From: an uncultured Isosphaeraceae bacterium
GTDB lineage: Bacteria > Planctomycetota > Planctomycetia > Isosphaerales > Isosphaeraceae
DNA: 64,000 nt
NCBI GenBank assembly: GCA_945957605.1
Contig: CAMFLR010000001.1
Coordinates: 124,001-188,000, forward strand
Direction: 5' to 3'
A model generated the notes under the pieces. The model was given only the letters and a program-made list of their open reading frames with translations. It had not been told where the DNA came from and searched no databases. The position numbers were made by a program, and so were the translations under genes. Shown piece by piece: positions 11,109 through 63,600 of this stretch (position 1 is its first letter; every line of letters begins with the position of its first letter).

Positions 11109-14100
11109 TCAGCCCACCGATTGCTGGGCGACGAGCTTGAACTCGAGGAAGCCGAAGAAGCTGAGCGATACGTTGATCAGCGTCGTCCGTCCTGCCTGGA
11201 TATTGGCGACGTTCGCCGCAATGCCGGGCGCGTCGCCAGGACGGGCGAGAACCGCGGTGTAGAAGCCGCTGACCGCTCGCTGGGTTGATTCCGAATTATT
11301 GATCAAGGTCGACACGATTGTCGCGCGCGGCGTGCCGGACGCGATCGCCGAAGTCTGAGCCGATAACTCGGCCGGAGTCGCCTCGCGGCCAAGAATGTCG
11401 TGATATTCGGTCTGAACGAAGTTTGTGTTATCGGCGTGCCGCGCGTTGAATTCAGGGCACGTGAGATAGAAGGACGCAAGATCGACCGTCGACATCCCGC
11501 CCTTCAACAGCGCTGCACCCGCCGAGACATCCGCGGCTGCACCAACGCGGCCCAGGAAACTGATGTAGAACGACTGCACGACGTGGATGAAATACTCGGT
11601 TGAGAGTAACAAACTCGACGCGAGCGTCTGCGCTGTGAGGCTGCCATTCTTGAGCGCTGCGACCGCCGCCGCCTGCCCGGCCGGATCGGTGGCTCGTCCC
11701 AGCACGAGTTGATAGACCGCCTTCACCTCGGCAGTTTCAACGTCGGGATTATGAGCTCCAAACGGCGCAGCGTTCGGGCTGAAAGGTGCGAGCAAACTCG
11801 TCGGCTGAATGCCGATGTTCGCCGTCGCATTCGGCTGCCCGGTTGTGAGCGTAACGCTCATCGCACCGTTGGTCGACGGGCCGAACGTCAGGTCGCCCGG
11901 ATAAGTCGTCGCGCGGATCACGCGGGTTCCGAGTGACAAGTTATTGAACGCATAATGACCCGTGCTGTCAGTTGTCGTCGAAGTCTCGCCACTATCGAGC
12001 ATGCCGTTGTTATTGGCGTCGATGTAAACGACCCGGCCGGCGAGCCCAGGATCTTTGCCGTTTGTTACAAGAAGGCCCGTCGCCTGAGTATCGTTGAAGA
12101 TCACTCCGCTAATCGACAGCCCTGCAATGTTGAACGCAGGGGTGCTGCCGACAGTTAGAGTCCCACTCGAAGCCGTGAGCTTGTAGCCCGTTCCCGCCTT
12201 GTTGAGCGACAGCCCGCTGAATGTTGCCACGCCGTTCACAAGTGCGATCGTCGTTGAACCGCTGAGGGTGCTGCTACCAGGATTCGTGCCAATCGTGAGC
12301 GTTACCGTGCCGTTGTAACCTGTGACGGTATTCCCACCCGAATCCTGCGCAGCCACCGTCACGACGAAAGTCTGGCCGGCGACGATTCCCGCAGGCGGTG
12401 ATGCTGTGAAAACCAGCTTCGACGCCGTTGGGGTGACGTTGATCGAATTCGACGGCACAGACGAAAGGATGCCGCTCGTTGCCGACAACGTGTAGCCGCT
12501 GGCCGGCACGCTGATGTTCAGCCCAGCGAAATTGGCCGTGCCGGTTCCGGTCGGAATCGTGATCGTCTTCGTGCCGCCGAGCGTCGCAGAACCAGGATTG
12601 GCCTGGAGCGCGACCGTGATGCTTCCCGCATATTTGAAGTCGACGTTGCCGTTACCGTCGACGGCTTGCACGGTCAGACCGAACGGAGCGAGTGTCAGTA
12701 CACTGCTGGGCGGTTGTGTGCTGAAAACGAGTTGCGTTGCCGGTGCGGCGATCACGTTAAATGGAATCGTCGTGCCCGAGGCCAGCCCGGGACTCGAAAC
12801 CTGAATCGTATAGGCCGAGCCCGACTTGTTCAGTGTCAGATCAGTGAACGTCGCGAGTCCACCGCTTGTTCCCACGCCAAGTGTTCCGCCGAGCGTACTC
12901 GAGCCGGGATTGTTCAAGAGCGCAGCGGTGATCGTTCCGGCAAAGCTCGGGTCGACGTTGCCATAAGCATCCGCCGCTTGAGCGGTCAGGCTAAAGGCTT
13001 GCGCGGCGACGACAGGCGATGGCGCGGGATTCGACGTGACGATGATCTGCGTATTCGCACCTTTGACAATGTCGATCGGATCCGTCGTCTGCGGCGTGAG
13101 CGTTCCGCTCGAAATTTGCAGCGTGTAGCCAGTTCCCACCTTGTCGAGATAAAGCCCGGTGAACGTCGCCACACCGAACTGGAACGCAACCGTCGTCGTC
13201 CCCGAAAGCTTGCCGCTGGCCGGGTTGTTCGAGATGACGATCTTTGCGTTACCGCTAAACGTGTTCACCGGATTATTGAGCGGATCTTCCGCCTGCACGA
13301 CGATCGAAGGCAACGCTCCGCCTGCGGTGTATGGGCCAGCCCCCGGCTGTGCCATGATCACCAGCTTGCTCGCAGGCGCCTGCGTCACGTTGATCGCCGC
13401 ACTCACCGCGTTCGTGAGCGTGCCGCTCGAAATCGTCAACGTGTCCGACGTTCCCACCTTGTCGAGATAAAGCCCCGCGAACGTTGCGACGCCGTTGATG
13501 AATGTGACCGTTTGCGTGCCGAAGAGATTCGAACCGCCGGAAACGGTAACCAGTGCGCTGCCGCTGTAGGTTGTGACGACGTTGCCCAGAAGGTCTTCTG
13601 CCTTCACCGTAAGGCCGAACGTCTGGCCGTCGGTGACGCTTGTGGGCGGCGCGGTGGTAATCACCAGTTTCGATGCAGGCGGCGGGATGACGTTGAATGC
13701 GCTCGTCGTCACCGATTTCAATGATCCGAGCGCGAGTGGGAGCGAGTAGGTTGACGCCGTCAGCGAGAAGTTCGAGCCGAGCTTGTCAAGCGTCAGGCCT
13801 GTGAAGACGGCGATGCCATCGACCGCGTTCACGGTAGTCGTGCCGCCCAGTGTCGCGCTGACGGGATTACTCGCGAACGACAGTGAAACTGGTCCGTTGA
13901 ACGATGCGTCGATGTTGTTGTTCGCATCGAGTGCCGAGACGGCGAATCCAAATCCGGTCAGCAGGCTCACGTTGCCCGGCGGCTGGGTGTTGATCGCTAC
14001 GTGCGTCGCGCCCAGTGTCGCATTAACCGCCGATGACACCGTCGAGGTCAAACCGCTTAATGTCGCAGTGAATTTGTATCCTGTACCCGCAGCCGAGATC

Positions 14101-16292
14101 TTCAGGCCGGAGAAGTCGGCCTGGCCTCGCACGACGGTCGCGGTCCAGCTTGTCGGCGAACTACCGCCAGGGTTGGTTGTGAGCGTCAGGGTAACAGTTG
14201 AACCATCGGCGAAGTCAGTCACGTTGCCGAGACTATTTTCGAGCGAAACGACGAGTCCGAAACCGCGGCCTGCGATTACGTTGGTGGGTGGCGCGGTTGT
14301 GATGGCGAGTTTCGTCGCTAGCGACAGCGGATTGAGCACCACGGCGGACATGTTGTTCGTCGTGTTCGAGCCTTTGGTCGACGTGAACCAAAGGTTTCCA
14401 TCGCTGCCCGCCGCCAGCGCGGTTGGGGTCTCGCCCGTAACCGGCGTGCTGGTCACGGCGAAGCTCGAACGATCCATCATGCCGACCGCGCTAGCTTGCG
14501 AGAACCAGATGTTTGTGTCAGGCCCGACCGAAATCGATCCGGTATTCGCGGCGGTCACTTCACGCAGCAGCGTTTGAGTCGCCGGGTTGATCACAGCGAT
14601 CTTGCCAGCCGTGCGCTCGGCGACGTAAATCATCTTATCGGTAGGGTTATACACGATCCCCTGGGGATTCGACGTCGCGCTCGTCAGCGAGACCGTCGAG
14701 AACGAATTCGCCGAGGGGTCGAAAATCCCCACCTTCCCCGTTCCCGAATCCGCGAACCAGAGGTCGCCGGTTGTGGGGTCAACCGTCATGCCGTAGGGAT
14801 GAGAACCGGTCGCCAGCGTGAAATTATCGGAAATCGCACCCGAACCTGGATTCAGGTAGCCGATCTTGTCGGCGTCGTATTCCGTGAACCAGACGAAGCC
14901 GCCATTCGATGCGTTATAAACCATCCCGAACGAACTGGTGCGTCCCGGAAATGTTCCGACAAGCGCAGTTGTCCCGGTTGTCGTGTCGAGCTTGAAGAGT
15001 TTCTCCGCACCCTGGAAGTAGACCGGCTGTACGGTGGCATAGACGATGCCGCTGTTCGGATTGAGCGCAAGCGCTTGCACCTGGTCGTACGAAACGCCTC
15101 CGGTGAGCGGATATTGCTTGCTAATCTGTGTCGCCGAATCAAAAACGCCAATCTCATTTCCGGTGCTGACACTTCCGGCATTGCCGCCGTAATACAACTT
15201 GCCCGACGAGTCGGAGATGATCGGTATGCCGTCAACAAGGGCCGTGGCCGTCGTCGTGGCGCTACCAACGGTGTGACTCGACGCGATGATCGAGATCAAA
15301 CCTCTTGGGCTCGTGTACCAGAGCTTGTTCCCGAGCGATGCCACCGCCGTGACACCGCTGCCATTGTTGTTCGGGTTATATTCGGTGATCTTGTTCGTGG
15401 CGACGTTCACCACGCCGATCTGACCGACTCCAGATCCGCCCACTTCCGCGAACCAGATGTTGCTGTCTGGGCCTACCGCAACGTTTGTAGGGGCTGTGTT
15501 TGCGCTTGCGCCCGAGATCGTTGTGAAGGTGGAAGTCGAAAGCGTGTACTTTCCAATCTTTGAAGACGCCGATTCGGCGAACCAGAGATTGCCCGACGCA
15601 TCGACCGTGATTCCCTTCGCCGAGTTCGTTCCGGTACCAAATTGGATTTCAGTGATCTGGTCGGTCGTCGGGTTGAGCTTGCCAATCTGGTTGGTTGATT
15701 GCTCAGTAAACCAGATATTGCCGTCGACCGGGTTGTAAACGATGCCGTAAGGGTTTGCGCCAAGTGTCGGCAGCGGGAACTCGGTGACGGCGTGCGTCGT
15801 CGTGTTCATCTCGCCAATGGCGTTTGCGCTGTTGTTGAACTCGGTGAACCAGAGATTGCCAGCCTGGTCGAACGCCAGCGAAGTGATGCCCGCGGCCGCG
15901 GTTGAGAGTAGCGGATATTCGCTGAAGCTGCTGCTCACAGGGTCGAAGACGCCAATTTGATTCGCCGTGGTTTCGGCGAACCAGACCTTGCCGTCGGGGG
16001 CAATGGCGATTCCGCTCGCGCCAGAGTTGTAGGTGGGAATCTGATACGCACCCTGCGTTCCATTCGATGGGTTGTAGAACGCAATGTTGTTCGACGCTTG
16101 TGTGTACCAGAGATTGCCCGACGAGGTGTCGGCTGCGATCGCGAGTTGCGCACCACCTTCATTACGGAGCGGAAACTGTGCAACCGTGTTCGAGAGCAGA
16201 GTCCGGCTCTCAAACTGTTCCAGGATCGGGCTCAGACTCTTGGAACGCCAAACCTGGCGACGCGAAAGCGCATGCGCACGACGGTGTGCCAT
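11109..16292 (-). CDS. Giant LEPR-XLL-type surface protein: Vgb propeller, Ig-like repeats, SdrD-B-like, DUF4214
   Basis: This 1727-residue protein opens with a basic segment followed by 'LEQFESRTLLS' (about 24-34), the planctomycete LEPR-XLL-type N-terminus that stands in place of a normal signal peptide. Residues about 35-640 are virginiamycin-B-lyase/NHL-like propeller repeats, recognisable by recurring 'GNLWFTE' and 'IGKLNP'; a lyase activity is not implied. Residues about 655-1390 contain seven Ig-like repeats of about 100 residues, each starting like 'ASKLVITTAPPTSV'. An SdrD-B/Cna-B-like domain follows ('VIFNDTQATG', 'YIDANNNGMLDSGE'), then about 210 residues of DUF4214 repeats ('VYQLVLGRATDPAG', 'FLGRVGAAAD'). 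It is probably a secreted or cell-surface adhesin-like protein. No ribosome binding site stands out. Confidence 0.88.
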   Translation of the reverse strand: MAHRRAHALSRRQVWRSKSLSPILEQFESRTLLSNTVAQFPLRNEGGAQLAIAADTSSGNLWYTQASNNIAFYNPSNGTQGAYQIPTYNSGASGIAIAPDGKVWFAETTANQIGVFDPVSSSFSEYPLLSTAAAGITSLAFDQAGNLWFTEFNNSANAIGEMNTTTHAVTEFPLPTLGANPYGIVYNPVDGNIWFTEQSTNQIGKLNPTTDQITEIQFGTGTNSAKGITVDASGNLWFAESASSKIGKYTLSTSTFTTISGASANTAPTNVAVGPDSNIWFAEVGGSGVGQIGVVNVATNKITEYNPNNNGSGVTAVASLGNKLWYTSPRGLISIIASSHTVGSATTTATALVDGIPIISDSSGKLYYGGNAGSVSTGNEIGVFDSATQISKQYPLTGGVSYDQVQALALNPNSGIVYATVQPVYFQGAEKLFKLDTTTGTTALVGTFPGRTSSFGMVYNASNGGFVWFTEYDADKIGYLNPGSGAISDNFTLATGSHPYGMTVDPTTGDLWFADSGTGKVGIFDPSANSFSTVSLTSATSNPQGIVYNPTDKMIYVAERTAGKIAVINPATQTLLREVTAANTGSISVGPDTNIWFSQASAVGMMDRSSFAVTSTPVTGETPTALAAGSDGNLWFTSTKGSNTTNNMSAVVLNPLSLATKLAITTAPPTNVIAGRGFGLVVSLENSLGNVTDFADGSTVTLTLTTNPGGSSPTSWTATVVRGQADFSGLKISAAGTGYKFTATLSGLTSTVSSAVNATLGATHVAINTQPPGNVSLLTGFGFAVSALDANNNIDASFNGPVSLSFASNPVSATLGGTTTVNAVDGIAVFTGLTLDKLGSNFSLTASTYSLPLALGSLKSVTTSAFNVIPPPASKLVITTAPPTSVTDGQTFGLTVKAEDLLGNVVTTYSGSALVTVSGGSNLFGTQTVTFINGVATFAGLYLDKVGTSDTLTISSGTLTNAVSAAINVTQAPASKLVIMAQPGAGPYTAGGALPSIVVQAEDPLNNPVNTFSGNAKIVISNNPASGKLSGTTTVAFQFGVATFTGLYLDKVGTGYTLQISSGTLTPQTTDPIDIVKGANTQIIVTSNPAPSPVVAAQAFSLTAQAADAYGNVDPSFAGTITAALLNNPGSSTLGGTLGVGTSGGLATFTDLTLNKSGSAYTIQVSSPGLASGTTIPFNVIAAPATQLVFSTQPPSSVLTLAPFGLTVQAVDGNGNVDFKYAGSITVALQANPGSATLGGTKTITIPTGTGTANFAGLNISVPASGYTLSATSGILSSVPSNSINVTPTASKLVFTASPPAGIVAGQTFVVTVAAQDSGGNTVTGYNGTVTLTIGTNPGSSTLSGSTTIALVNGVATFSGLSLNKAGTGYKLTASSGTLTVGSTPAFNIAGLSISGVIFNDTQATGLLVTNGKDPGLAGRVVYIDANNNGMLDSGETSTTTDSTGHYAFNNLSLGTRVIRATTYPGDLTFGPSTNGAMSVTLTTGQPNATANIGIQPTSLLAPFSPNAAPFGAHNPDVETAEVKAVYQLVLGRATDPAGQAAAVAALKNGSLTAQTLASSLLLSTEYFIHVVQSFYISFLGRVGAAADVSAGAALLKGGMSTVDLASFYLTCPEFNARHADNTNFVQTEYHDILGREATPAELSAQTSAIASGTPRATIVSTLINNSESTQRAVSGFYTAVLARPGDAPGIAANVANIQAGRTTLINVSLSFFGFLEFKLVAQQSVG

Positions 16293-25203: not shown

Positions 25204-28116
25204 ATGCGCACGATCGTACTTGCAATCATGATGGCGCTAGTTTGCGTCACGAGCTCGAGAGCGCTCGAGCCGATACCAGATAAGCTCGTCGTTTTAACAT
25301 TTGACGACGCGAGCCGGTCGCATGTGGAAGTGGCGGCCCCGTTGCTCAAGAAGCACGGGTTTGGCGCGACGTTCTTCATCACCGAAGGATTCGACTTCCC
25401 CACGAATAAACGCGACTACATGACGTGGGAAGAAGTGGCCCAACTGAATCGCGATGGATTCGAGATTGGTAACCACACGCGCGACCACAAGCCGCCATCG
25501 TCGAAAGACGCGAAAGAAACGCTCGCGCAGCTTGCAGCGATCGACGCGAAGTGCGCCGAGCATGGCATTCCCAAACCGGTGTCATTCGCCTATCCCGGCA
25601 ATGCGCTCGATAAGGATGTGCTCGCGCTTTTGCGACAACATGGAATCAAGTTCGCCCGCCGCGGTGGTGCGCCGGAATATCCCTATGAAAAAGGACAGGG
25701 ATTCGCATATGAGCCGGGGATTGACCATCCGCTGCTCATTCCGTCGGCCGGCGACGGTCGACCGAACTGGACGCTCGATAACTTCAAGCAGGCGGTGAAT
25801 CAGGCGCGCGGCGGAAAAATCGCGGTGATTCAGCTTCACGGCGTTCCGGACACGGCACATTCGTGGGTGAATACCCCAAAGGCGGTATTTGAATCGTACG
25901 TGCGATACCTCGCCGAGAATGGCTACAAGGTGATCGCCATGCGCGATCTGGCGAAATATGTTGATCCCGATCAGGTTCCCAAAGATCCCTGGGAAGTGAT
26001 TGAAAAACGCAAAGCCGCGCTCGCCACGAATACAACCCACACTCGCGCGAACGTGCCGGTCGAAATCTCGTTCACGGCGAATAACGTACCGAACGACCCG
26101 TTCACGGATTTCGAACTCGACGTCATGTTCAAAACTCCTTTAGGCGGGGCTTTGCGCGTGCCGGCCTTCTGGGCGGGAGGCAAAACGTGGAAGGTGCGAT
26201 ATGCCTCCCGCGAAATCGGCGTTCATGCGTATGTAACGCTGGCGAACTTTGCCGAGTTGAATGGCAAGCCTGGACGCGTCGAAGTTGAAGCTTATCAGGG
26301 CGAGAATCTGCTCTATAAGCTTGGACCTGTGCGCGTCGCCGACGACAAGCGGCACATGGCCTATGCTGATGGCACACCGTTCTTCTGGCTGGGCGACACA
26401 TGGTGGATGGGCCTCTGCCATCGCATGAAATTCCCCGAAGATTTCGCGACACTCACCGCCGATCGCAGAACGAAGGGCTTCAACGTCGTCCAGATCGTTG
26501 CTGGATTATATCCCGACATGCCGCCGTTTGATCCTCGAGGCGCGAACGAGGCGGGGTTCCCGTGGGATCCAAAATTCGAGCGGATTCGCCCTGAGTATTT
26601 CGACGCTGCCGATGCGCGGTTGCAATACCTTGTCGACCAGGGAATCACCCCCTGCATCGTCGGCATGTGGGGGTATTTTTTGCCGGAAATGGGAGTTGCA
26701 AAGGCGAAGGCCCACTGGCGTTATCTCATCGCACGCTATGGTAGTTGGCCGGTCGTCTGGTGTGTCGCGGGCGAGGCGAATTTGCCTTATTACCTCGCGA
26801 AAGGTTTCCCGTACGACTCGCGCGAACAGGTTCACGGCTGGACTGAGGTGATGAAATACGTTCGCGCCACTGACCCGTTCCATCGGCCCGTCACAATTCA
26901 TCCGACGGCGATCAACAAGTACACATCACGGCACGCAACCGATGATCCTGCCCTGCTCGACTTCGACATGCTGCAAACTCCGCATGGTCAGCGAGAGGCA
27001 GCAGGCATCACGTTGCAGGCAGTTCGCGAGTCGTACGCCGCATTGCCGAAAATGCCGGTGATCGACGGTGAGGCGGCTTACGAAAAGCTGAGTGACAGTC
27101 TCCCCACCGAATGGACTCGTGCGATGTTCTGGATTTGCATGGCCGAGGGCGCAGCGGGTCACACGTATGGGGCGAATGGCATCTGGCAGGTGAATCGCAA
27201 GGGGCAACCGCACGGTAAGTCGCCTCATGGAGGGTCGTACGGCCTTATCTCGTGGGATGAAGCGATGGTGCTACCTGGTTCTGGCCAGATTGCGGCGGGC
27301 AAAGCGTTCCTTGAAAAACGCGGCTGGACGAAGTTTGAACCGCATCCGGAGTGGGTTGCGTGGGACGGTGGAGATGCGGCGCAACCTCCTGCGCTCGGCA
27401 AGTGGATCTGGTTCCCGGAAGGTGATTCGTCAAAAGACGCGCCTGTTGCGCCGCGGTATTTCACACGCAAATTTGAGCTGCCAGCCGATCGCGCAATCAA
27501 ACGTGCTCGGTTGCGACTCGGGGCCGACGATCGTTACGAGGCGTGGGTGAATGATGCTTCCGTTGGCTCGGGCGGATCGTGGCTCGATCCTCTGTTGGTT
27601 GATGTCGCAACGCGATTGAAACCCGGTGTGAATCACCTGGCGATCCGCGCAGAAAACATGCCGGCGCCGGTGAAACTCAATCCGGCCGGATTGACCGCGG
27701 CGCTCGAAATTGAGTTCGCAGATGGCAACAAATTGCGCATCGAAACTGGCGCTTCCTGGCAGTCGTCAAAGAGCGAATTTCCGGGTTGGCGTACGGGCGC
27801 GAATACGGAAGACACCAAGCCTGCGCGCGAGATCGGCCCCATGGGCATCGCGCCATGGGGCATGCCGCAGTCACGTCCTGCATTCCCGCCGCTCGCGTTT
27901 GGCGATCCATCAGCCACGCGAGTGTTTTATATGCTCGATTGCAAACCCGTTGTGATCAAGGGGCTCGAACCGGGGCGGATGTACCGTGTCGAGTCATTCG
28001 ACACGGTTCAGGGACAAGCCGCTTCTGCAGGCGAAATCAAGGCTGATGCATCAGGCACTGCGCGACCCAGCGTTCCGGCGCACGGTCACGACTGGGTGTT
28101 GGCACTCACTCCTTGA
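25204..28116 (+). CDS. Secreted fusion: polysaccharide deacetylase + DUF5060-like + DUF4038 glycosidase + galactose-binding-like domain
   Basis: This 970-residue protein has a signal peptide (1-20). A NodB polysaccharide deacetylase domain (about 25-260) shows TFDD at 32-35 and the zinc pair His91/His95 in 'GNHTRDHK'. A beta domain of DUF5060 type (about 285-385) follows, then a DUF4038/GH140-like TIM barrel (about 388-745) with 'FFWLGDTWWMG' at 394-404, a likely acid/base Glu525 in 'VAGEAN' and likely nucleophile Glu623 in 'VIDGEAAYE'. A galactose-binding-like domain (about 765-890) and a tail end the protein. Two hydrolases in one chain suggest de-esterification followed by cleavage of an acetylated plant or algal glycan (inference). 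The ATG has GAGGAG upstream. The 3' end overlaps the convergent kinase gene by 31 bases. Confidence 0.87.
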   Translation: MRTIVLAIMMALVCVTSSRALEPIPDKLVVLTFDDASRSHVEVAAPLLKKHGFGATFFITEGFDFPTNKRDYMTWEEVAQLNRDGFEIGNHTRDHKPPSSKDAKETLAQLAAIDAKCAEHGIPKPVSFAYPGNALDKDVLALLRQHGIKFARRGGAPEYPYEKGQGFAYEPGIDHPLLIPSAGDGRPNWTLDNFKQAVNQARGGKIAVIQLHGVPDTAHSWVNTPKAVFESYVRYLAENGYKVIAMRDLAKYVDPDQVPKDPWEVIEKRKAALATNTTHTRANVPVEISFTANNVPNDPFTDFELDVMFKTPLGGALRVPAFWAGGKTWKVRYASREIGVHAYVTLANFAELNGKPGRVEVEAYQGENLLYKLGPVRVADDKRHMAYADGTPFFWLGDTWWMGLCHRMKFPEDFATLTADRRTKGFNVVQIVAGLYPDMPPFDPRGANEAGFPWDPKFERIRPEYFDAADARLQYLVDQGITPCIVGMWGYFLPEMGVAKAKAHWRYLIARYGSWPVVWCVAGEANLPYYLAKGFPYDSREQVHGWTEVMKYVRATDPFHRPVTIHPTAINKYTSRHATDDPALLDFDMLQTPHGQREAAGITLQAVRESYAALPKMPVIDGEAAYEKLSDSLPTEWTRAMFWICMAEGAAGHTYGANGIWQVNRKGQPHGKSPHGGSYGLISWDEAMVLPGSGQIAAGKAFLEKRGWTKFEPHPEWVAWDGGDAAQPPALGKWIWFPEGDSSKDAPVAPRYFTRKFELPADRAIKRARLRLGADDRYEAWVNDASVGSGGSWLDPLLVDVATRLKPGVNHLAIRAENMPAPVKLNPAGLTAALEIEFADGNKLRIETGASWQSSKSEFPGWRTGANTEDTKPAREIGPMGIAPWGMPQSRPAFPPLAFGDPSATRVFYMLDCKPVVIKGLEPGRMYRVESFDTVQGQAASAGEIKADASGTARPSVPAHGHDWVLALTP

Positions 28117-29768
28117 TGAGGCGGAATATCGCGCAGAAGCTTCTGCAAGGTGTTGAGGTCGAGCGGTTTCACGAGGTGGTGGTCGAACCCCGCCTCGCGA
28201 GACCGCCGCAGATCTTCCTCCTGTCCCCAGCCAGTCATTGCGACAATGAGCGGCTGGTCGCCTTCGGTGCGCAGCCTGAGCAATTCCGCCACCTTGTAGC
28301 CGCTTAGGCCGGGCAAGCCGATATCGAGAAGCACGACGTGCGGCTTGAACGCGAGTGCTTTCTCAAGCGCTTCTTCACCACCAAAACAGACGAGCGTGTC
28401 TTGCTGCCAGACTTCGCTAAGTAGCAGACCAATCGACTTGGCCGAGTCGACGTTGTCGTCGACAATGAGCACCCTGCGTCTGGGCAGCCCTACTCCGTCG
28501 ACCGAGAAGCCGTCGACCTGTTGAGTCGGTTTCACGCTAGTCGCCGGGGTGCGAAAAACCGGCAGCCTTATGATGAATTGCGACCCTTTTCCAAGACCAT
28601 CGCTCCACGCCGCAACGCTACCGCCGTGCAGCTCGGTCAGGCTTTTCACCAGGCTCAGGCCGAGCCCCAGACCGCCTTGCGAGCGGTCGAGCCGGCGTTC
28701 AACCTGGACAAATAGGTCGAAAATGTGTGGTAGTTTTTCAGGCGCGATCCCGATGCCGCTATCGGTAAGCGTGATGACCACAGTGTCGCCGTCGAGCCGG
28801 GCGGCGAGATGAATTTCGGCCCCGGTGTCAGAATACTTCGCAGCGTTGGTCAGCAGGTTGCCCAGGATCTGTTCGAGTCGCGTTGGGTCGGCGTTGAGGC
28901 GAATGGTTTGAATGGGTAAGGACACGGAAAGTTCGTGATTCTTGGCATCCATCATTGGCCGCGCCGCTTCCACTGCGCGGTGCACAACGGTGCTTAGCTC
29001 GACGATTTCCTTGCGCAGCTCAATCTTGCCCGAGGTGATTCGCGAAACGTCCATCAGGTCGTCGATCAACCGCGCAAGGTGAGAAACCTGGCGCTCCATC
29101 AGACCCTGGACTTTTTCCGAGTACGACGGATCATCGCCGCTATGTTTGAGCACATAAAGCGCATTGCGAATCGGCGCGAGCGGGTTGCGAAGTTCGTGCG
29201 CGAGCATCGCCAGGAATTCATCCTTGCGGCGATTCGCTTCCTGCAACGACATGCGTTCGCGTTGCTCCGTCAGGTCGCTGACGATCATGCAAATTGATAG
29301 CTCGTCGTTGACGATGAGCGATGAGATCGCCACGAGTACGGGAAGCCGGTCGCCATTGTCGAACTCGAACTCGAATTCTCCATGATGGCCGGTCGTTCGG
29401 CCGCGATCGAGCGCTTCGAGGAATTCAGCGCGGTGCGCACGGGGGAGAAACTCGGTGACACTCGCACCAATCACGCGCTCGATCGGCCGCGAAACCATCT
29501 CGGCGAATCGACGATTGCAGTAGAGGATAACGGCGGCGACGCTTACCGTCGCCGCGCCTTGCTGCATCGACTCGATCAATTCGCGGTAAGGATGATCGGC
29601 GCCGTGGAGCGTGAAAACGCGATCGCCATTGGGGCCGTTTACAACCAGCGCATCAACCTCGCCATTGCGAATCGCGCGCAGAGTCTCTTCGGCTTCTTCC
29701 AATCGATTTCTTAGCGATTCCACGTCGTCATTATCAAAGTCGGAAGACACGTGACCGGTCTCCTTCAC
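28086..29768 (-). CDS. PAS hybrid sensor histidine kinase with receiver domain, in kai operon
   Basis: This 560-residue soluble hybrid kinase has an N-terminal coiled segment (about 16-36), a PAS domain (about 60-170), HisKA with phospho-acceptor His191 in 'LAHELRNPLAPI', HATPase_c ('DSGIGIAPEKLPHIF' 337-350, 'GGLGLGLSLVKSL'), and a receiver domain (about 432-550) with acidic pair 'VDDN' and phospho-acceptor Asp482 in 'LLDIGLPGLSG'. There are no membrane helices. It starts with GTG, overlapping the kaiB stop by 4 bases (GTGA), so translation is coupled to the Kai genes. It is the probable output or input partner of KaiC/KaiB, in place of the cyanobacterial SasA, but unlike SasA it has no KaiB-like sensor domain of its own. 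No DNA-binding output domain is present. Confidence 0.88.
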   Translation of the reverse strand: MKETGHVSSDFDNDDVESLRNRLEEAEETLRAIRNGEVDALVVNGPNGDRVFTLHGADHPYRELIESMQQGAATVSVAAVILYCNRRFAEMVSRPIERVIGASVTEFLPRAHRAEFLEALDRGRTTGHHGEFEFEFDNGDRLPVLVAISSLIVNDELSICMIVSDLTEQRERMSLQEANRRKDEFLAMLAHELRNPLAPIRNALYVLKHSGDDPSYSEKVQGLMERQVSHLARLIDDLMDVSRITSGKIELRKEIVELSTVVHRAVEAARPMMDAKNHELSVSLPIQTIRLNADPTRLEQILGNLLTNAAKYSDTGAEIHLAARLDGDTVVITLTDSGIGIAPEKLPHIFDLFVQVERRLDRSQGGLGLGLSLVKSLTELHGGSVAAWSDGLGKGSQFIIRLPVFRTPATSVKPTQQVDGFSVDGVGLPRRRVLIVDDNVDSAKSIGLLLSEVWQQDTLVCFGGEEALEKALAFKPHVVLLDIGLPGLSGYKVAELLRLRTEGDQPLIVAMTGWGQEEDLRRSREAGFDHHLVKPLDLNTLQKLLRDIPPHQGVSANTQS

Positions 29769-54038: not shown

Positions 54039-54661
54039 CGTGGTCAGGCCTTTCGGCGAGTCTCGCCCGTCAAGTCAGCCGTGGTTTGCCCAGCTAATCC
54101 TACCCCGCCGATTTGACTTCGCCCATCTGTGGATCACACTCGAATGATCCACTCGCCGCGCACCCTTGCGCAGAACACCTGAGTTCGCTCCTGTCTGTCC
54201 CCTCGAATCCACACCTCCCGCGAATTCTACCAGAAGTCACTTGACGGCCCGCAGGCCACCGGCGATGATTGAATGAGTGCATGCAGTCACTCAGTCAAAT
54301 CTTGCCGATTGGACTGTCGTGGTTGAGAAGGTAAATCCGTAAGTCGCGATCCGTGAGTCTCGAGGTTTTGGGCAATTGACGCAGATTGAGTCGATTGCGA
54401 TGATCAGAGATTCCCTGGTGATTGTGGTTTGCGAGTTGCGGAGAGACGGGCGATTAGGTTGAGGCGAGCGACCCTGGGAGGGGTGGCGGGGAGTGAGTCG
54501 CGGGGGACCGGGATGGTCTCGAAAGCGGCTGGCTAGTCAAACGCGAATATCGGGGCGCTAGGTTCGATCACCTTGAACATTCGAGTTCGCTCTCGCGGCC
54601 TGGGCCTGTGCGGCTGACGGCGTGAGAGGCAGGACTTCGGGGCTTACCGGGGAGTTTGTCG
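54039..54661. other. Long intergenic/leader region upstream of giant protein 3
   Basis: About 620 bases without a gene. It holds a hairpin GTGGATCA-N8-TGATCCAC at 54129-54152, a candidate promoter TTGACG-N17-GATGAT at 54376-54404, a G-rich tract at 54476-54512, and the GGGGAG ribosome binding site of the next gene. Confidence 0.4.
54376..54404 (+). promoter_or_regulatory. Candidate promoter for giant protein 3
   Basis: TTGACG and GATGAT hexamers are separated by exactly 17 bases. This predicts a leader of about 250 bases that contains the G-rich tract. Confidence 0.3.
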
Positions 54662-57600
54662 ATGGGAAGCTTCAACGGGAAGGGACGCGAGCAGGAAATG
54701 AAGCGGCGAAAAGCCCTGACGGCCAAGCGGCTGCGTCCAGCGGGAGAAGGGCTTGAAGACCGCAGACTCCTCTCGAGCGGGAATAACCCCGGTTCCGGAA
54801 ACGTGGTGCCGCTGGTCCAACTGGCCGCCGGCAGCCTCACTGTGAATTCGATCACCCCCGGCGGTGGGTTGACCTATACCAACACCCCGAACTCGCTGGT
54901 CGTCACCTTTAGCAAGGCGGTTCAGCTTTCGAGCATCAACTCGAACTCGCTGACTGTGACCGGCCCGACCGGCGTGACGGTCAAGCTGGGCACGCCGACG
55001 GGTGTCGACGACCCCAACTTCCCAACCCAAGTCTCGTTCCCGTTCGTCTTCACCCGCGCAGCCGGGGCGAACGCGAATGCGAAGTTCACCGACACGGTGA
55101 ATGCTGGCACGATCACGGCGAAAGACGGCTCGCTCGTCTCTCAGTTCACCGACAGCTTCACGCTGAACGACACGACCTCGCCGCGGATCACGAACGCGAC
55201 CTTCAACGGCCGCACCATCACGATCGCGTTCAGCGAGCAGATCGATCAGTCGACGATCAACCAGCAGAACATCGCGCTCGTTCGTGCAGGTGGTCCGAAC
55301 AACGGGTTCAACAATAACCCGGCAAACGTGATCGTGACGAACGACTCGCGCGTCAAGTATTCGTACAACGCGAGTACGCAGACGGTTACGATCGACCTCT
55401 CGGGCCTGCCGCAGACCCTGCTGCCGACCGACCACTACGCACTCGTTGTCAACTCGCCGACGTTCGACTCGGGCGGCAACGTGCTGACGCAAGGCGTGAC
55501 CGACCAGGTTGGAAACGCGTTGAACGGTAAGTTCAATGGTGTCTTCCCGTCGGGCATCACTCCGCCCGCCCCGCCCGCGAAGCCGGTCTACAGCAGCTTC
55601 GTGGAGGATCTCGGCGTTCGCACGCTGACCGCGCCGATCATCACGTCGGTCGGACTCGCCGCCGGCTCCGACTCGGGCATCGCGAACGACAACAACACGA
55701 ACGTCAATCGCCCGACGTTCACCGGTCACATCACGGCGCCCTTCCCCGGAACGGCCGCAGGCGTGACCGTTCTTGTCGAGTTCAACGGTCTTCAGCACAC
55801 CGATCCGATCACGGGCCAGCCGCTGCCGATCGGCACGCTGAACCTCAACATCGGACCAGGAGGTCGCGGTTTCACCGGCTCGTACGACGCCGTTGTCACC
55901 ACAGACGCGAACGGCAACTTCACGGTTGTCTATCCTGCCGGTCTGGCCAAGCTGCCGGACGGCCTGAATCGCGTTCGCTTCCTGGCGATTGCTCAGCCCG
56001 ACGCCCCGCCGCTGCCGGGCTTCTCGGTGCTCCTCGACCAGTCGTTCCGGGTTGACACCACCCTGCCCGGCATGGACACCGGTTCGACCCACCCGAGCGG
56101 TGCCTCGCTGCTGCAGGGTGCGACGATCAGCTCGCTGTCGAATCTCTCGGTCTTCTTCAGCGACTCGGTTCTGCCGTCGAACCTCGGCAACCCGCTCGCA
56201 GTGCCGACAAGCCTCTCCTTCCCCGCGCTCGACCCGGCGACGGCGAACAACCTGAGCAACTACTCGCTGTACCAGGTTGATGCGAACGGCAAGTTCCTCG
56301 CTGACGAGTCGCAGTTCATCAAGACGGCGACGTTCGTTTCGACGACCGTCCGTACGCTGACGAGCCAGCCCTACACCGGCCACGTCGACCTCACGTTCTC
56401 GTCCGGCCTGCCCAAGGGCTATTACATCTTCGTTGCTCACACGCAGGAACCCGGCTTCTCCGGTCTGCGTGACGCCGCTGGTAACCTGCTCGCCGGTGAT
56501 CCGACGAAGCCGGGCGTCGCGGCCGACTACAAGCTGATGTTCAACTATCAGCCCGAAGCGACGTTCATCACCAATGTCGACGCCGTCAGCCCCGACGGCA
56601 CGATCAGCGGTCCGCGGTCGTACTTCGAGGTGCCCCTGCCCGGCACCACGCCTCGCGCTGAAGCTCCGCCGAACGAGTTCGTTGTTCACTTCTCGAACCC
56701 GCTCAACCCGAATGCTGACTACACGAACGCGGTCCAGCTCATCGCGTCGGCCGACGCGAACGGCGGGTCGGGCGGTACGTCGGATGGTAACTTCGGTAGC
56801 CTCGGCATCAACGACGACGGCTCGGGCTACAGCCGCGTTCTGCCCGCCGGCACCACGGTGACGCTCGCGAGCTCGAACCCCGCAGCCACCAGCCCGGCCG
56901 ATCCTGGCTTCAACGACGAGCTGATCCTCCAGCTTCCCGACAACTTCGTTCTCAGCCCCGACTACTACCGCCTCTATCTGCCGAACTCGACGCAGACGAC
57001 CGGAAATTCGACGTCGCTCAACACGGCGGTGTTCGACATCTTCGGCAATCAGCTCGACGGCGAGTTCCTGGGCAACCAGACCGCGGACGGCAGCTACCAG
57101 GACCTGCTGCCGACCGGTGCTGAACGCGTCGGTCTCTCCGGCGACGGTACGCCTGGCGGTGCCTTCCTGACGGGCTACGTCATCACGGCCAATGCGAACA
57201 TCATCTACGCCCAGCCGGGGGCGCCTGACGACCCGTTCAACCCCGCCAACGCTCCGGACGGCAGCATCGCGCATCCGTTCCCGACCCTCGCTCCGCAAGC
57301 CGTCTACACTGCGGCCAACGGCGGCGACCTGAACTCGTCGGTGAACTTCGGAACTGGTTTCAATCCGATCTACGACCGCATGCATGCGGGCGTCTTCCAT
57401 CGTTCGGCACTCTACGCGGCCCAGGTCGCTTCCGCAAAGGGCCCGGTGGTTGTCGTCGCTCTTCCTGCAATCCCGGGTACCGCAACCCAATCGTTTGTCA
57501 TCCAGGCTCCGTCGGGTACCGATGCGATTGCCAACGACGGCAGCGTCTCCGTCCCCGCGATGACGACCCTCGTCTTCGCTCCCGGATCGACCGTCAAGCT

Positions 57601-60600
57601 GCTGAACGCTTCGATCCTCGTTCAGAACCAGGGTTCGGCGATCCAGGTTGAAGGTGGTGCAAACCCCGGTCAGGCGGTGAACTTCACCTCCTATCTCAAC
57701 GACGCGATTGCCGGCGACACAAACGGCGACCAGGGGAACACAACCGCGCGTGGCGGCGACTGGGGCGGTATTCTGCTCCGCAACTTCGACCAGACCAACC
57801 GCTCGTCGACGTTCCCCGGCCAGCTTCAAACGACGGCCAACACCGCTCAGAACAACCGCCTCAAGGGGCCTGGTGGTGTCGACGCGATCTCGGGTGCCGA
57901 CGATGCCATGTCGGTGATCAATTTCGCCAACATCAGCTTCGGCGGCGGTGCGGTACCGCAGACGATCGGTTTCCGCTACGACGCGATCACGTTGCAGAAC
58001 GCCCGTCCTGCGATCACCAACACCTCGATCTCTCAGACCGGTCTGGGACGAGGTGCACAGGCAGCGATCTCGGCGAACGTCGACTCGTTGCGTGAAGATG
58101 CGACGGCTCGCGGCCCGCTCGTTCGCGACGTTAACTTCTCGCAGAACAGCCTCAACGGCATCTACATCCGTGCGGAAGTCAACGGTGTAGCTGAGGCGAC
58201 CAACGCCATCAACTACCCGATTAACCCCGCGACCTCGGGCGGCCAGCGCAACTTCACCTTGAGCTCGCCCTACCCCTACATCCTCACCACGCCGATGGTT
58301 GTTGGCGGTCTATTCCTCGAAGAAACCGGCGGTGTTTCGTCGAGTGAGCCGGATCGTCTCTACATCCAGCCCGGCATGATGGTGAAGCTGTCATCCGGTG
58401 CGGGTATCGAAGTCGTCGGCTTCGGGACCGGTTCGCGTCAGGCGAGCATCAATATCGGCAGCCGTACGTATATCAATGAGTTTGATATCAATCCGGCGAT
58501 TGCCCCGACGCTTCCGAACGGGCAACCGAATCCGAACTTCAAGCCCAATCCTAACAGCGACGCCAACGTCGTGCTGACGTCGATCTTCGACAACCTGGCA
58601 TCGACGCAGTATTTCGATCCAACGACCGGACTCGCGACGCAAATCGTCGCGCCGTCGGACTCGGCTAACACGGGGCCGAACAGTCCGCTGCAGCCGACGA
58701 CGGGGAACGTTCCCGACGCCTCGCGCTGGGGCGGCATCCAGATCGATTCGCCGGCAGTCGCGGTCATTAACGATACGACGGTGCAGTTCGGTGGTGGATT
58801 GGTTAACACCGCCGGTGGTTCTACACCGCGGCACGCACTTCAGTTTGTCGGAGCGAGCGGTTCGGGCTCCAACGGCACGGGTACGCACGTTTCGATTACC
58901 AACAACAACTGGTATTCAAACGCCGACACGCCGATTCAGACTACGCCAAACGGCCTTCTCGCTGCTGATCCGCTTCGGCCACTGCAATCAGGAAATCCGT
59001 TCCTTCGCGGCAACGTCTTCCAGAACAATGATTACAATGGTTTGGGTGTAACGTCCGACACTGCTGGCGCGGCTCAGGTCAACGGTCTCATCAACACTAG
59101 CAACGGTCTTCTCACGGTAAACTCGGTCTGGGGCCTCACAGACCTGACGTACATCCTGAAGGGAACAATCGTTCTTGGGCCGGGACCAAACGGTCGCGCA
59201 CCAATCGGCGCAGCTTCGGGTCCCCAAGCCGTACCGGCACCAGGAGTCACGCTGACAGTTCAGGCGAATCTTCCGGGAACGATCCTGGCGGACGGCTCCG
59301 TCATCGGAAAGCCGGGTGAGTCGCCGATCGTCAAACTCCTCAACATCAATGGCGCCGTTCCTTCGCTACCCTCGGTTCTGGGCAGCACGATTGGTATCGA
59401 AGGCTACCAGGGTGCTGGCTTCATCTCTGGCGTCGATAACGGCGTTGATCCCAGCGCAGACTCTCTGGTCGATACAGGTGTCAATAGCGCTCTCCGATTC
59501 GTCGGGATCGGCGCCAATCAGACGACCGGGCAGGCACGCGTGCCTGTCATCATCACGTCGATGCACGACAGCACCGTTGGTACGACGGTGCGCGGCGTGA
59601 CGATGAATCAGGCAATTTCTGGTGACACTACCGCGCCGGCCCCCGGCGACGGCGGCAATATCGAGTTCGGTGCGCTCGGCGCCACGAGCTTCAACTTTTA
59701 CGACCCGCGTCTCGGCAGCATCATCGACAATGCCGACATCCGCTACATGAGCAACATCATCCAGCAGGGTGGTGGGATCGTTAACATTGTCAACACCGAC
59801 ACGACTGCGGGCGTCGATCTCGGCGACCAGTATCTCAATCAAGAGATGGGCCAGCCGGCAAACGTCAACGGAGTGCTCGACTACTCGTCGCAATTCAATA
59901 CGCCGCGTTCGATCACTCTCTCGAATTCCAACTTCTCGAGCTTTAGCGGTACAGGTTTCTACGCTGACCACGGTCACAACAGCTTGGCCGCATCGGTTAT
60001 CGGCGGTGGTTCAGGCGGGTTCGCGTTCCCGACTCGGCTTGGAATTACCAGCGAGCCCACGTACAGCTTCCTGTACAACAACACGTTCTCGAACATGCCG
60101 AATGCTGTGCAGGTTGTCTCGCAACAGGGGTCAGACAACGGCACAACTGGCGATTTGCCCGCTCAGCTCATTCTGTTGAACAACACGTTCTATCAGACAG
60201 GGAATTCGGTTGTGTTGACCGGTGCCGTGCCGACGAGCACCAACCCGCGGTCGCACGTCTACTACCTGTCGATGAACAACATCTACGATGGGGCCACTGG
60301 TCCCGTCTTCACGCTCACCAACCGAGTGATCGGACAGAGCCAGAACGACCTCTTCTTCAATAACGCCAGCATCGGTGCAGGCACAACACACGCAGTGTTC
60401 GGCGACCCGGCGTTCATCGACCCGAACAACGGGAACTTCAATCTCCTTTCAACCTCTGCCGCGATCGACTCGGCCCGATCCGAAATCGGCCCGTATGCTC
60501 TCGGAAATATGCTCAGCCCGCCCGTTGACCAGGTTCTTGGTCCTCAGGCGGCCATCCGAGATCCGAATAACTTTGGCCGCACGAACCTTATCGGTGGCCT

Positions 60601-63600
60601 CAGCGGTGCGTTCGTCACCCCGACCGACTACATCTTCCTCCCTGGTTCGCCGTTGCCGAACTACGTGAGCGAGTGGGTTCCGCAGATTACCGGAACTGCG
60701 GGCAGCTATACTGGTCCGTTCTCGAACGCCGCAACGTTCGCTTACGCTCCGATCACCGGCGAACGTGACGCGGCGGGCAACCTCCGCATCGACGATCCCA
60801 ACAAGCCGAACCTCGGTTCTGGTGCCAGCCCGTTCTTCGATATCGGTGCGTTCGAGTATGTTCAGGTCTTCCCGCCGCACGTCACCGGTGTGACGGCAAA
60901 TTACACCGATCCCACCGCGCCGACGGGTTCGACCACCAAGTCGATCTACTCGACGACTGGTGTGGCCGGAACGAATATCGCTCCCAACTCGATCTCGTTC
61001 CAGCTCGACCACAACATCGATCCGACGACCATCACCAACCAGACGGTGTTGCTCCAGGCATCGGGTGGCGACGGCCTCTTCGGCAACGGCAACAGCGCGG
61101 CCGACCGGTTCATCGACCTCTCGGGCAAACTGTCGTTCAACTCGCTCACGAACGTCCTCACGATCAGCCTGGCCAATGCCGGTCTCATTCTGACGAACGA
61201 CGAGTACCGCCTCGAGTTGGTCGGCACCGGTTCGCAGGTGCTGCGTGACCCGCAAGGTAACGCTCTCGACGGCGAAAACACCGTCGGTGGTCTGGCGACG
61301 GGTGCTCAGCTCCCGCTGCCTTCGGGCGACGGCGTGCCGGGTGGCAACACCTACGTGACCTTCACGATCGACACCAACCCGCCCAAGATCGTGCCGAACA
61401 CGTTCTTCCTCGACCCTTCGACCGACAGCAATCGCATCGACGGCGTTACGAACAACACCACCCCGAACTTCCAGGGGAACATCACCGACATCTTCCCGCC
61501 GGCCAACCCGGTTGCGGGCCAGACGGTGATCATCGACATCTCCACCAAGGGCGACGGTGTCTTCGACCTTCTGAACGCCGGCACCGGCACCACCGATGCC
61601 AACGGCCACTTCTCGGTGAAGATCAACACGCCCCTGCCCGACTCGCAGTACAACGTCGGGGCGAACGGCTACCTGGCCTTCGACTACACCAAGAACCCGC
61701 CGGTCTACCAGACGACGAACTACGGCTACTCGATGGCCCGCGTTCGCATCGTCGACCAGGCTGGCAACGTGTCGAACAAGGTCACCGACCCGCTCAGCTC
61801 CTACATCGCCGCCGGTGCTGTCACCTCCTTCGTGGTTGACACAACGGGCCCGACGATCACCGCGGCCACCCCATCGAACAACCAGACGACTGGTGTCACG
61901 GCGAACGGTGTGCCCGTCACCATCACGTTCAACAAGAACGTTGACCCGGCGACGATCAACGCCAACTCGATCAAGGTGCTCCGCTCGGGTGGCGACGGCG
62001 TGTTCGGCAACGGCAACGACGTGCCGGTCACGATCGACCCGAACAGCATCTCGTTCAAGTACCTTGGTGGTGCGCTCGGTGCTGAGTCGGTGACGTTCAA
62101 CATCATCGGCAGCCAGGCCAACCCGCTCGCCAACGACCAGTACCAGGTGACGATCGCCGGTGCCGGCACCTCTGTGGTGACCGACATCGCGGGCAACGCC
62201 TTGAACGCGGTGGGTGCGGGCTCGACAGGGTCAAACTTCACTGACACCTTCATCGTGTACTCGCCGACGATCCAGCACACGCTGTTCGTGGGCTCCGCGT
62301 TCGCCAGCGATCCGACTGCGAAGCTCGGCTCGCGTGCCAACCCGTACACGACGATCCAGTCGGCGATCAACGCGGCCCAGCTTGGTGACGTGGTTGCGGT
62401 TCTGCCCGGCCTCTACACCGAGTCGATCACGCTCAAGTCGCTCGTCACGGTGCGTTCGGCCGACCTCAGCAGCACCGACAACATCGTGCTCCCGGGTGAT
62501 CCTCTGCAGACGATCATCCGTGCCCCAGCCGTCACCTCCGCCACGACCCCGACCGGCACTGGTGCCACGGTCGCGACGGTGACCGGTATCAACATCGCCA
62601 GCTCGACCGGCGGTACGGCCGTCCTGAACACCGAGTTCAGCGGCTTCACCGTGGCCAGCCCGCTGGCCGGTAACCCGGCGACGGGGACGATCCAGACGGG
62701 TTCGGTTGGTATCCAGCTCATCAACGCGAACATCCTGATCGACCGCAACTTCGTGGTCGACTCCTACATCGGGATCGCCGAAGCCTCGACGGGTATCAAC
62801 GCGATCTTCCCGCGAGTGTTCAACAACGGCATCATCGGCAACAACGTCGGTTTCTCGATCGACGGTACCCTTGCCTCGAGCCTGGCAGCAGTCGCTCAGG
62901 TCTCGAACAACACCTTCGCCTTCAACAACCAGGGTGCTGGTGTCGCCGCGCTCGCGTCGGGTCCGCTGCTCGTCACCTTCGCCAACAACATCTTCTGGCA
63001 GAACCACGACCTGACATCGGCCCGCAATGGCGACGCGATCGCTGCCAACGTGCCGAACAAGACGCTCGTTCTGAGCAACCTGTTCTCCGGCAACGGCGCC
63101 AACCCCAACAGCACGGCGGACGACACGTTCAACATCGGGACCGGCTTCCAGCCGCAAATCCTGACGACGACCGCCCCCGACGGCCTGGGCAACTTCACCG
63201 GCGACCCGGCGTTCGTTTCGCCGCGTGACCCGCGCCCGACGGCCGACGGACCTGCATCGTTCTTCAACGATGCCGACTTCGACCTGCTGTTCACGTCGGC
63301 CGCCATCGATCGTTCCAACCCGGCCTACGCCCCCGCGACCGACTTCCTCTATCGCGGCCGGATCATCGTCCCGGGACGTGCCTTCACCGTCACCAGCCCG
63401 TACAGCGCCAGCGTCGGCCCGGCCGATGTCGGAGCCTTCGAGTACGGCGGCACCGGCGGAATCCCGCTCGGCGGCCAGACTTTCCGCGTGGTTAACGACT
63501 CGCTCGCTTCGGGCAACTCCAGCCGCGCTGGCGGGACGGTTGTGCCCTACACGGCAGCTCCGTCGTCGATCACCGTCAACTTCTCGTCGAACGTCAAGCA

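Follow-up and report, generated by a model that had tools for sequence, protein, structure and literature searches.

We found that an uncultured Isosphaeraceae bacterium encodes a single chain, by its N-terminal sequence secreted, in which a NodB/CE4-type deacetylase is joined to a DUF5060-DUF4038 glycosidase carrying a CBM67-like lectin domain. We consider it fairly probable (about 0.6) that both enzymes in the protein work and that their proximity aids deacetylation and cleavage of an acetylated rhamnose- or galactose-bearing polymer. Within the window, i.e. the whole 64,000-nucleotide stretch that was analysed, the gene is one uninterrupted frame of 970 codons, opening with ATG at 25204 directly downstream of a Shine-Dalgarno-like stretch (GAGGAG) and closing with a stop codon at 28114-28116. 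Its features are collected in Table 1. The last 31 bases of the gene (28086-28116) overlap tail-to-tail with a minus-strand sensor-kinase-like gene (28086-29768). The first-pass annotation had described a secreted single chain with a deacetylase, a glycosidase barrel and a sugar-binding-like domain. The frame and its coordinates proved exact, the N-terminus reads as a signal peptide and all the listed domains were recovered, but the DUF5060 domain and the C-terminal beta-sandwich had been overlooked.

Table 1. Features of the fusion gene, in window coordinates
Feature	Coordinates	Strand	Evidence
Whole gene, secreted fusion protein, 970 aa	25204..28116	+	Open frame and Pfam
Signal peptide, residues ~1-20, MRTIVLAIMMALVCVTSSRA	25204..25263	+	Judged by eye from the sequence
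NodB/CE4-type deacetylase, residues ~20-274	25261..26025	+	Pfam, invariant residues, model, CE4 fold matches
Junction linker, residues ~272-280	26017..26043	+	Comparison with standalone NodB (L071/L088) and standalone glycosidase (L047/L115) genes
DUF5060 beta-sandwich, residues 281-375	26044..26328	+	Pfam PF16586 (1e-13); model
DUF4038/PF13204 (GH140-like) TIM barrel, residues 376-722	26329..27369	+	Pfam, PDB alignment, fold match, column counts
CBM67/Pleurotus-lectin-like jelly-roll, residues 729-889	27388..27870	+	PDB sequence match, fold match, alignment
C-terminal beta-sandwich, DUF4038 type, residues 892-970	27877..28113	+	Model; a relative (L117) weakly matches PF12904 (0.001)

Pfam assigns residues 25-150 to Polysacc_deac_1 (8e-22), residues 286-346 to DUF5060 (1e-13) and residues 380-709 to Apiosidase/DUF4038 (PF13204, 8e-67; 226.5 bits versus a curated cut-off of 26.5). 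Orthologues of either half are ∼50-80% identical, and the domains are hence conserved far beyond chance. The structure prediction suggested at the outset gave confident AlphaFold models from homologue alignments (pLDDT ∼94), with mean pLDDT 93.8 and pTM 0.92 for the NodB part and mean pLDDT 93.7 and pTM 0.86 for the glycosidase part; they match CE4 and GH140 structures, respectively.

The deacetylase half carries most of the CE4 signature (motif definitions from PMC5855634). Motif 1 is present as TFDD (D34 and D35), motif 2, H(S/T)xxH, as H91-T-R-D-H95, and the motif 5 His as H212 in IQLHG. The first-pass annotation had claimed intact metal-binding Asp and His residues and had looked to their loss in homologues as the sign of a degenerate domain. 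Our alignment of 24 homologues, diverging down to 42% identity, shows instead that the base Asp (D34), the metal Asp (D35), both metal His (H91 and H95) and the motif 5 His (H212) are invariant. Pfam, the model and the CE4 fold agree with this assignment. Foldseek places the model among CE4 enzymes (best match 1e-9, probability 1.00, TM 0.5-0.6 by query length), and the metal triad, base, acid and fold are common to the CE4/NodB deacetylases PplD (6dq3), PdaA (1ny1), PgaB and IcaB. In contrast to these enzymes, the window NodB has LHG at motif 5 and reads FAYPG (residues 128-132) at motif 3, where the Arg of RxPY is absent, so that deacetylase activity is not assured. PplD, the best PDB sequence match of this half, reads AIAYPSG at the same position and also lacks the Arg. 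A possible counterpart of motif 4, DxxD(W/Y), is SAGDGRPNW (DARPxW in relatives), in a part of the alignment that is of low confidence. Unlike the four enzymes named above, the domain belongs to a family of planctomycete type, in which no close member has a solved structure.

The missing motif 3 Arg, together with known CE4 pseudoenzymes of similar fold (PDB titles 7bkf and 6hpa), raises the question of whether one half is catalytically dead and acts as a binding or stabilizing domain. We regard this as quite unlikely. The D, D-H-H and H set is invariant in the 24 homologues, both candidate catalytic Glu residues of the barrel are retained throughout the glycosidase clade as judged by column counts, and no rate acceleration is seen: in a tree of 38 NodB rows the end branch of the fused copy is 0.16 versus 0.12 and 0.13 in its nearest kin, and, domain by domain, the glycosidase half is about as similar to its relatives as these are to one another. 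Since rates are normal in all domains, both enzymes are probably active, and neither half looks degenerate.

The glycosidase half was expected to hold a DUF4038/GH140-like barrel with two candidate catalytic Glu residues, and both the PF13204 match and the residues bear this out. The candidates are E524 (AGEANLP, 26773-26775) and E623 (DGEAAYE, 27070-27072), which we take to be the acid/base and the nucleophile following the usual convention for clan GH-A, i.e. the opposite way round to the published prediction for BT_1012. In the PDB alignment they correspond to Asp187 and Glu284, the catalytic pair of BT_1012, for which structural prediction made Asp187 the nucleophile/base and Glu284 the proton donor (PMC4032388). 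Position 524 is Glu in 35 of 40 aligned rows, and Asp appears in five outgroup rows only. For PF13204 as a whole, this position is Asp in 82% and Glu in 17.3% (PMC4032388). The Glu/Glu pair thus bars a canonical GH140 assignment but not membership in the superfamily.

Fold comparison is in line with this placement. The top Foldseek match of the glycosidase model is the Bacteroides protein BVU_0362 (PDB 4n0r, titled 'putative glycoside hydrolase'; ∼17% identity over the fold); GH140 apiosidases, SaRha78A and Pleurotus lectin are also returned. Among solved GH140 structures, TM-scores by target length reach 0.79 for 8t9w and 0.76 for 5msy. The window protein shares the PF13204 barrel fold, the C-terminal sandwich and the nucleophile Glu with the GH140 apiosidases (BT_1012, PDB 3kzs/5msy; the mangrove enzyme 8t9w), but it is only 17-18% identical to them over the fold, has Glu in place of the acid/base Asp, and carries additional DUF5060 and lectin domains. 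By sequence, the barrel matches apiosidase 8t9w with an E-value of 2e-15, versus 4e-115 for a second PF13204 gene of the same genome (L002, G000:C9:163445-164491), which has Asp at the position of E524. The difference argues that the window clade is a distinct Glu-type branch. We considered the window barrel as a canonical GH140 enzyme and rejected this because of the Glu/Glu pair and the weak match to characterized apiosidases. A scan of genome contigs with the glycosidase half as query placed Glu-type DUF5060-DUF4038 members in Planctomycetota, Verrucomicrobiota, Armatimonadota, Acidobacteriota, Bacteroidota, Chloroflexi and other groups (e.g. L119, L126, L153, L181 and L189); no characterized member of the clade was found in this analysis.

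The sugar-binding-like domain claimed at first pass is supported by a PDB sequence search, in which residues 732-889 match the lectin of Pleurotus ostreatus (E 5e-24) as well as SaRha78A (3w5m; E 7e-17); a further comparison gives E 5e-20 for 3w5m. The jelly-roll, the WIWFPEG and ADD/ADN motifs and the Asp179 position are common to the window domain, the CBM67 of SaRha78A and the Pleurotus lectin. D775/D776 align with Asp179/Asn180 of SaRha78A, presumably its Ca-binding pair, and D775 is retained in 15 of the 20 rows that have the domain. Unlike in these two proteins, the domain is placed as an insert between the barrel and the C-terminal sandwich of that barrel; the insert is present in 20 of the 40 aligned glycosidase rows.

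In relatives the two halves are kept apart. The same-genus genome G398 encodes the glycosidase half (L047, 68% identity) with its own N-terminal leader, and no NodB match was found in that genome. A further relative (G427, L048) likewise has the glycosidase half with its own leader and without NodB (63% identity), as do many others, and in Paludisphaera soli (G420) both halves are separate genes on different contigs, the NodB half alone being L071. No NodB domain occurs in the same ORF at any of 89 loci of the glycosidase clade, and a NodB-like ORF lies nearby, with a weak match, at one of the 89. The search for the same domain order that the first-pass annotation had proposed did not turn it up again: searches at phylum, class and family level, which covered 836 genomes if overlaps are included, returned no other full-query match and hence no second NodB-DUF5060-DUF4038 chain. 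The large genome searches scored the two best candidates per genome, among which a fused chain would still show. Given that the relatives' glycosidases lack NodB, that no locus is fused and that NodB occurs with other partners, the fusion is, as far as these comparisons reach, lineage-specific.

At the junction, the C-terminal helix of NodB is kept and runs into DUF5060, and the glycosidase starts just past the position expected for its leader; neither the stop codon that ends NodB in relatives nor their second leader is present. The fusion being known from a single genome, one might suspect an error of assembly or the loss of a stop codon between two adjacent genes. This is hardly credible, since the in-frame join lacks the stop, the second leader and whatever DNA lay between the genes, which is more than a single base error could remove. 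The two genes are also not neighbours in the relatives examined, GC and GC3 are similar on either side of the junction, and the contig is 1.29 Mb long. The fusion has the appearance of a recent and perhaps unique event that united two genes still separate in relatives.

The NodB half in other planctomycetes is often free-standing. It is also joined to a sulfatase and a SASA esterase (L091, from the same family as the window), SASA (L095, L098), a BNR sialidase-like domain (L094), an FAD oxidoreductase (L096, L100), rhamnosidase parts (L046) or a weak PL14-like domain (L038). The 38-row tree places the window copy together with Isosphaeraceae copies that are free-standing or fused to a sulfatase (SH-aLRT 99) and requires no fewer than 12 partner changes; the tree comes from a short search, and the details of its deep branches are unsure. 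The NodB unit is thus a promiscuous module. In the literature, mostly outside subscription journals, we found nothing that describes the present domain order or the partner swapping of planctomycete NodB.

Several further NodB-containing chains were observed. A conserved domain of ∼290 aa (PYPGGRHPR...IRPQRETK..., with a CPC motif) lies C-terminal to NodB in many planctomycetes (L079:586-1461, minus strand; L010, L013, L080-L087, L092, L099 and L101-L103); Pfam does not recognize it, and no PDB sequence matches it convincingly. The Isosphaeraceae chain L091:376-3996 (minus strand) adds HEAT-like repeats to NodB, sulfatase and SASA acetylesterase, giving three possible glycan-modifying activities in one chain. 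In L106:5353-7413 (minus strand), NodB is followed by a C-terminal segment without a Pfam match that carries an HExxH-like LIHELAHNIH and is possibly a zinc peptidase. In L093:1802-4279 and L097:2511-5216, NodB is followed by ∼500 aa with WWSGDTHSHR/WWSGDAHNHR, which resemble a PHP-type metallohydrolase by eye and have no Pfam match.

The chief rival to our reading starts from this partner swapping. The fusion might be incidental, with a wandering secreted planctomycete NodB acting on one common target (e.g. N- or O-acetyl groups of cell-envelope or exopolysaccharide) and a glycosidase whose substrate is unrelated. The variety of NodB contexts (free-standing, or with sulfatase and SASA, SASA, BNR sialidase-like, FAD oxidoreductase, ∼290-aa and other partners), the label changes on the tree and the lack of any NodB pairing in one ORF among the 89 glycosidase loci all favour it. 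On the other hand, the sulfatase, SASA esterase, sialidase-like, PL14-like and rhamnosidase partners look glycan-active, which fits NodB units that serve as helpers of glycan breakdown. We hold an incidental fusion to be possible rather than likely. The first-pass annotation had proposed concerted deacetylation and chain cleavage on one glycan. The domain identities, the leader and the intact residues hold up, but there is little sign that evolution has kept the two activities paired for a common glycan: only one such fusion came to light in the searches, the one nearby NodB-like ORF is a weak match, and NodB is joined to many unrelated partners.

Gene context does not name the substrate. Within the window, no polysaccharide-utilization cluster surrounds the gene. 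A conserved gene neighbourhood was considered and rejected, the window neighbours (GFO/IDH/MocA oxidoreductase, sensor kinase, 6PGD, DUF1501 and others) being neither glycan-related as a set nor common to relatives. Across the ∼89 glycosidase-clade loci, SDR dehydrogenases are found as neighbours at 9 loci, and HpcH/HpaI-type or cupin proteins at ∼6; the SDR and HpcH/HpaI neighbours point faintly to oxidative catabolism of sugar acids, but not strongly enough for a sugar to be named. Two other ORFs of the window, at 54656-63961 (plus strand, 3101 aa) and 11109-16292 (minus strand, 1727 aa), bear the N-terminal motifs LEDRRLLSS and QFESRTLLS, as in giant planctomycete surface proteins.

In the two-enzyme reading that we prefer, a fusion event in Isosphaeraceae would have joined an N-terminal NodB/CE4-type deacetylase to a pre-existing DUF5060-DUF4038-CBM67-like glycosidase, with loss of the second leader. 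We infer that the lectin domain would hold a rhamnose- or galactose-type side chain while both sites act on the same glycan. The NodB site would remove acetyl groups via a metal-activated water, with D34 as base, D35, H91 and H95 as metal ligands and H212 as acid, and the barrel would cut the glycosidic bond by retaining double displacement, with E524 as acid/base and E623 as nucleophile. The joining would supply proximity and no new chemistry. What the data show directly are the domains and their folds, the residues, the leader as read from the sequence, and the fused state, together with its absence from the relatives searched.

An experimental precedent for a deacetylase-glycosidase chain is the GH11-CBM36-CBM36-CE4 xylanase Xyl from a Trinervitermes hindgut metagenome (PMC9165906). 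Like the window protein, Xyl combines a glycosidase, sugar-binding domains and a CE4 deacetylase in one secreted chain; unlike it, Xyl has another glycosidase family, domain order and binding modules, its CE4 domain is C-terminal and its xylan substrate is known. Glycosidase-CE4 chains as such are thus already known; the novelty lies in the particular set of domains and, at a broader level, in a NodB family that swaps partners. Should the two sites work on one and the same glycan, the protein would serve directly as a tool on acetylated polymers rich in rhamnose or galactose. It would also offer a first way into the function of the Glu-type DUF5060-DUF4038 clade, whose members come from several phyla. 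A broader idea, which we put forward with considerable doubt, is that planctomycetes attach one interchangeable secreted NodB to many secreted enzymes as a general unmasking module for a class of acetylated glycan typical of their habitat. One deacetylase module with many planctomycete partners is, in any case, a testable lead on the acetylated polymer that these bacteria meet.
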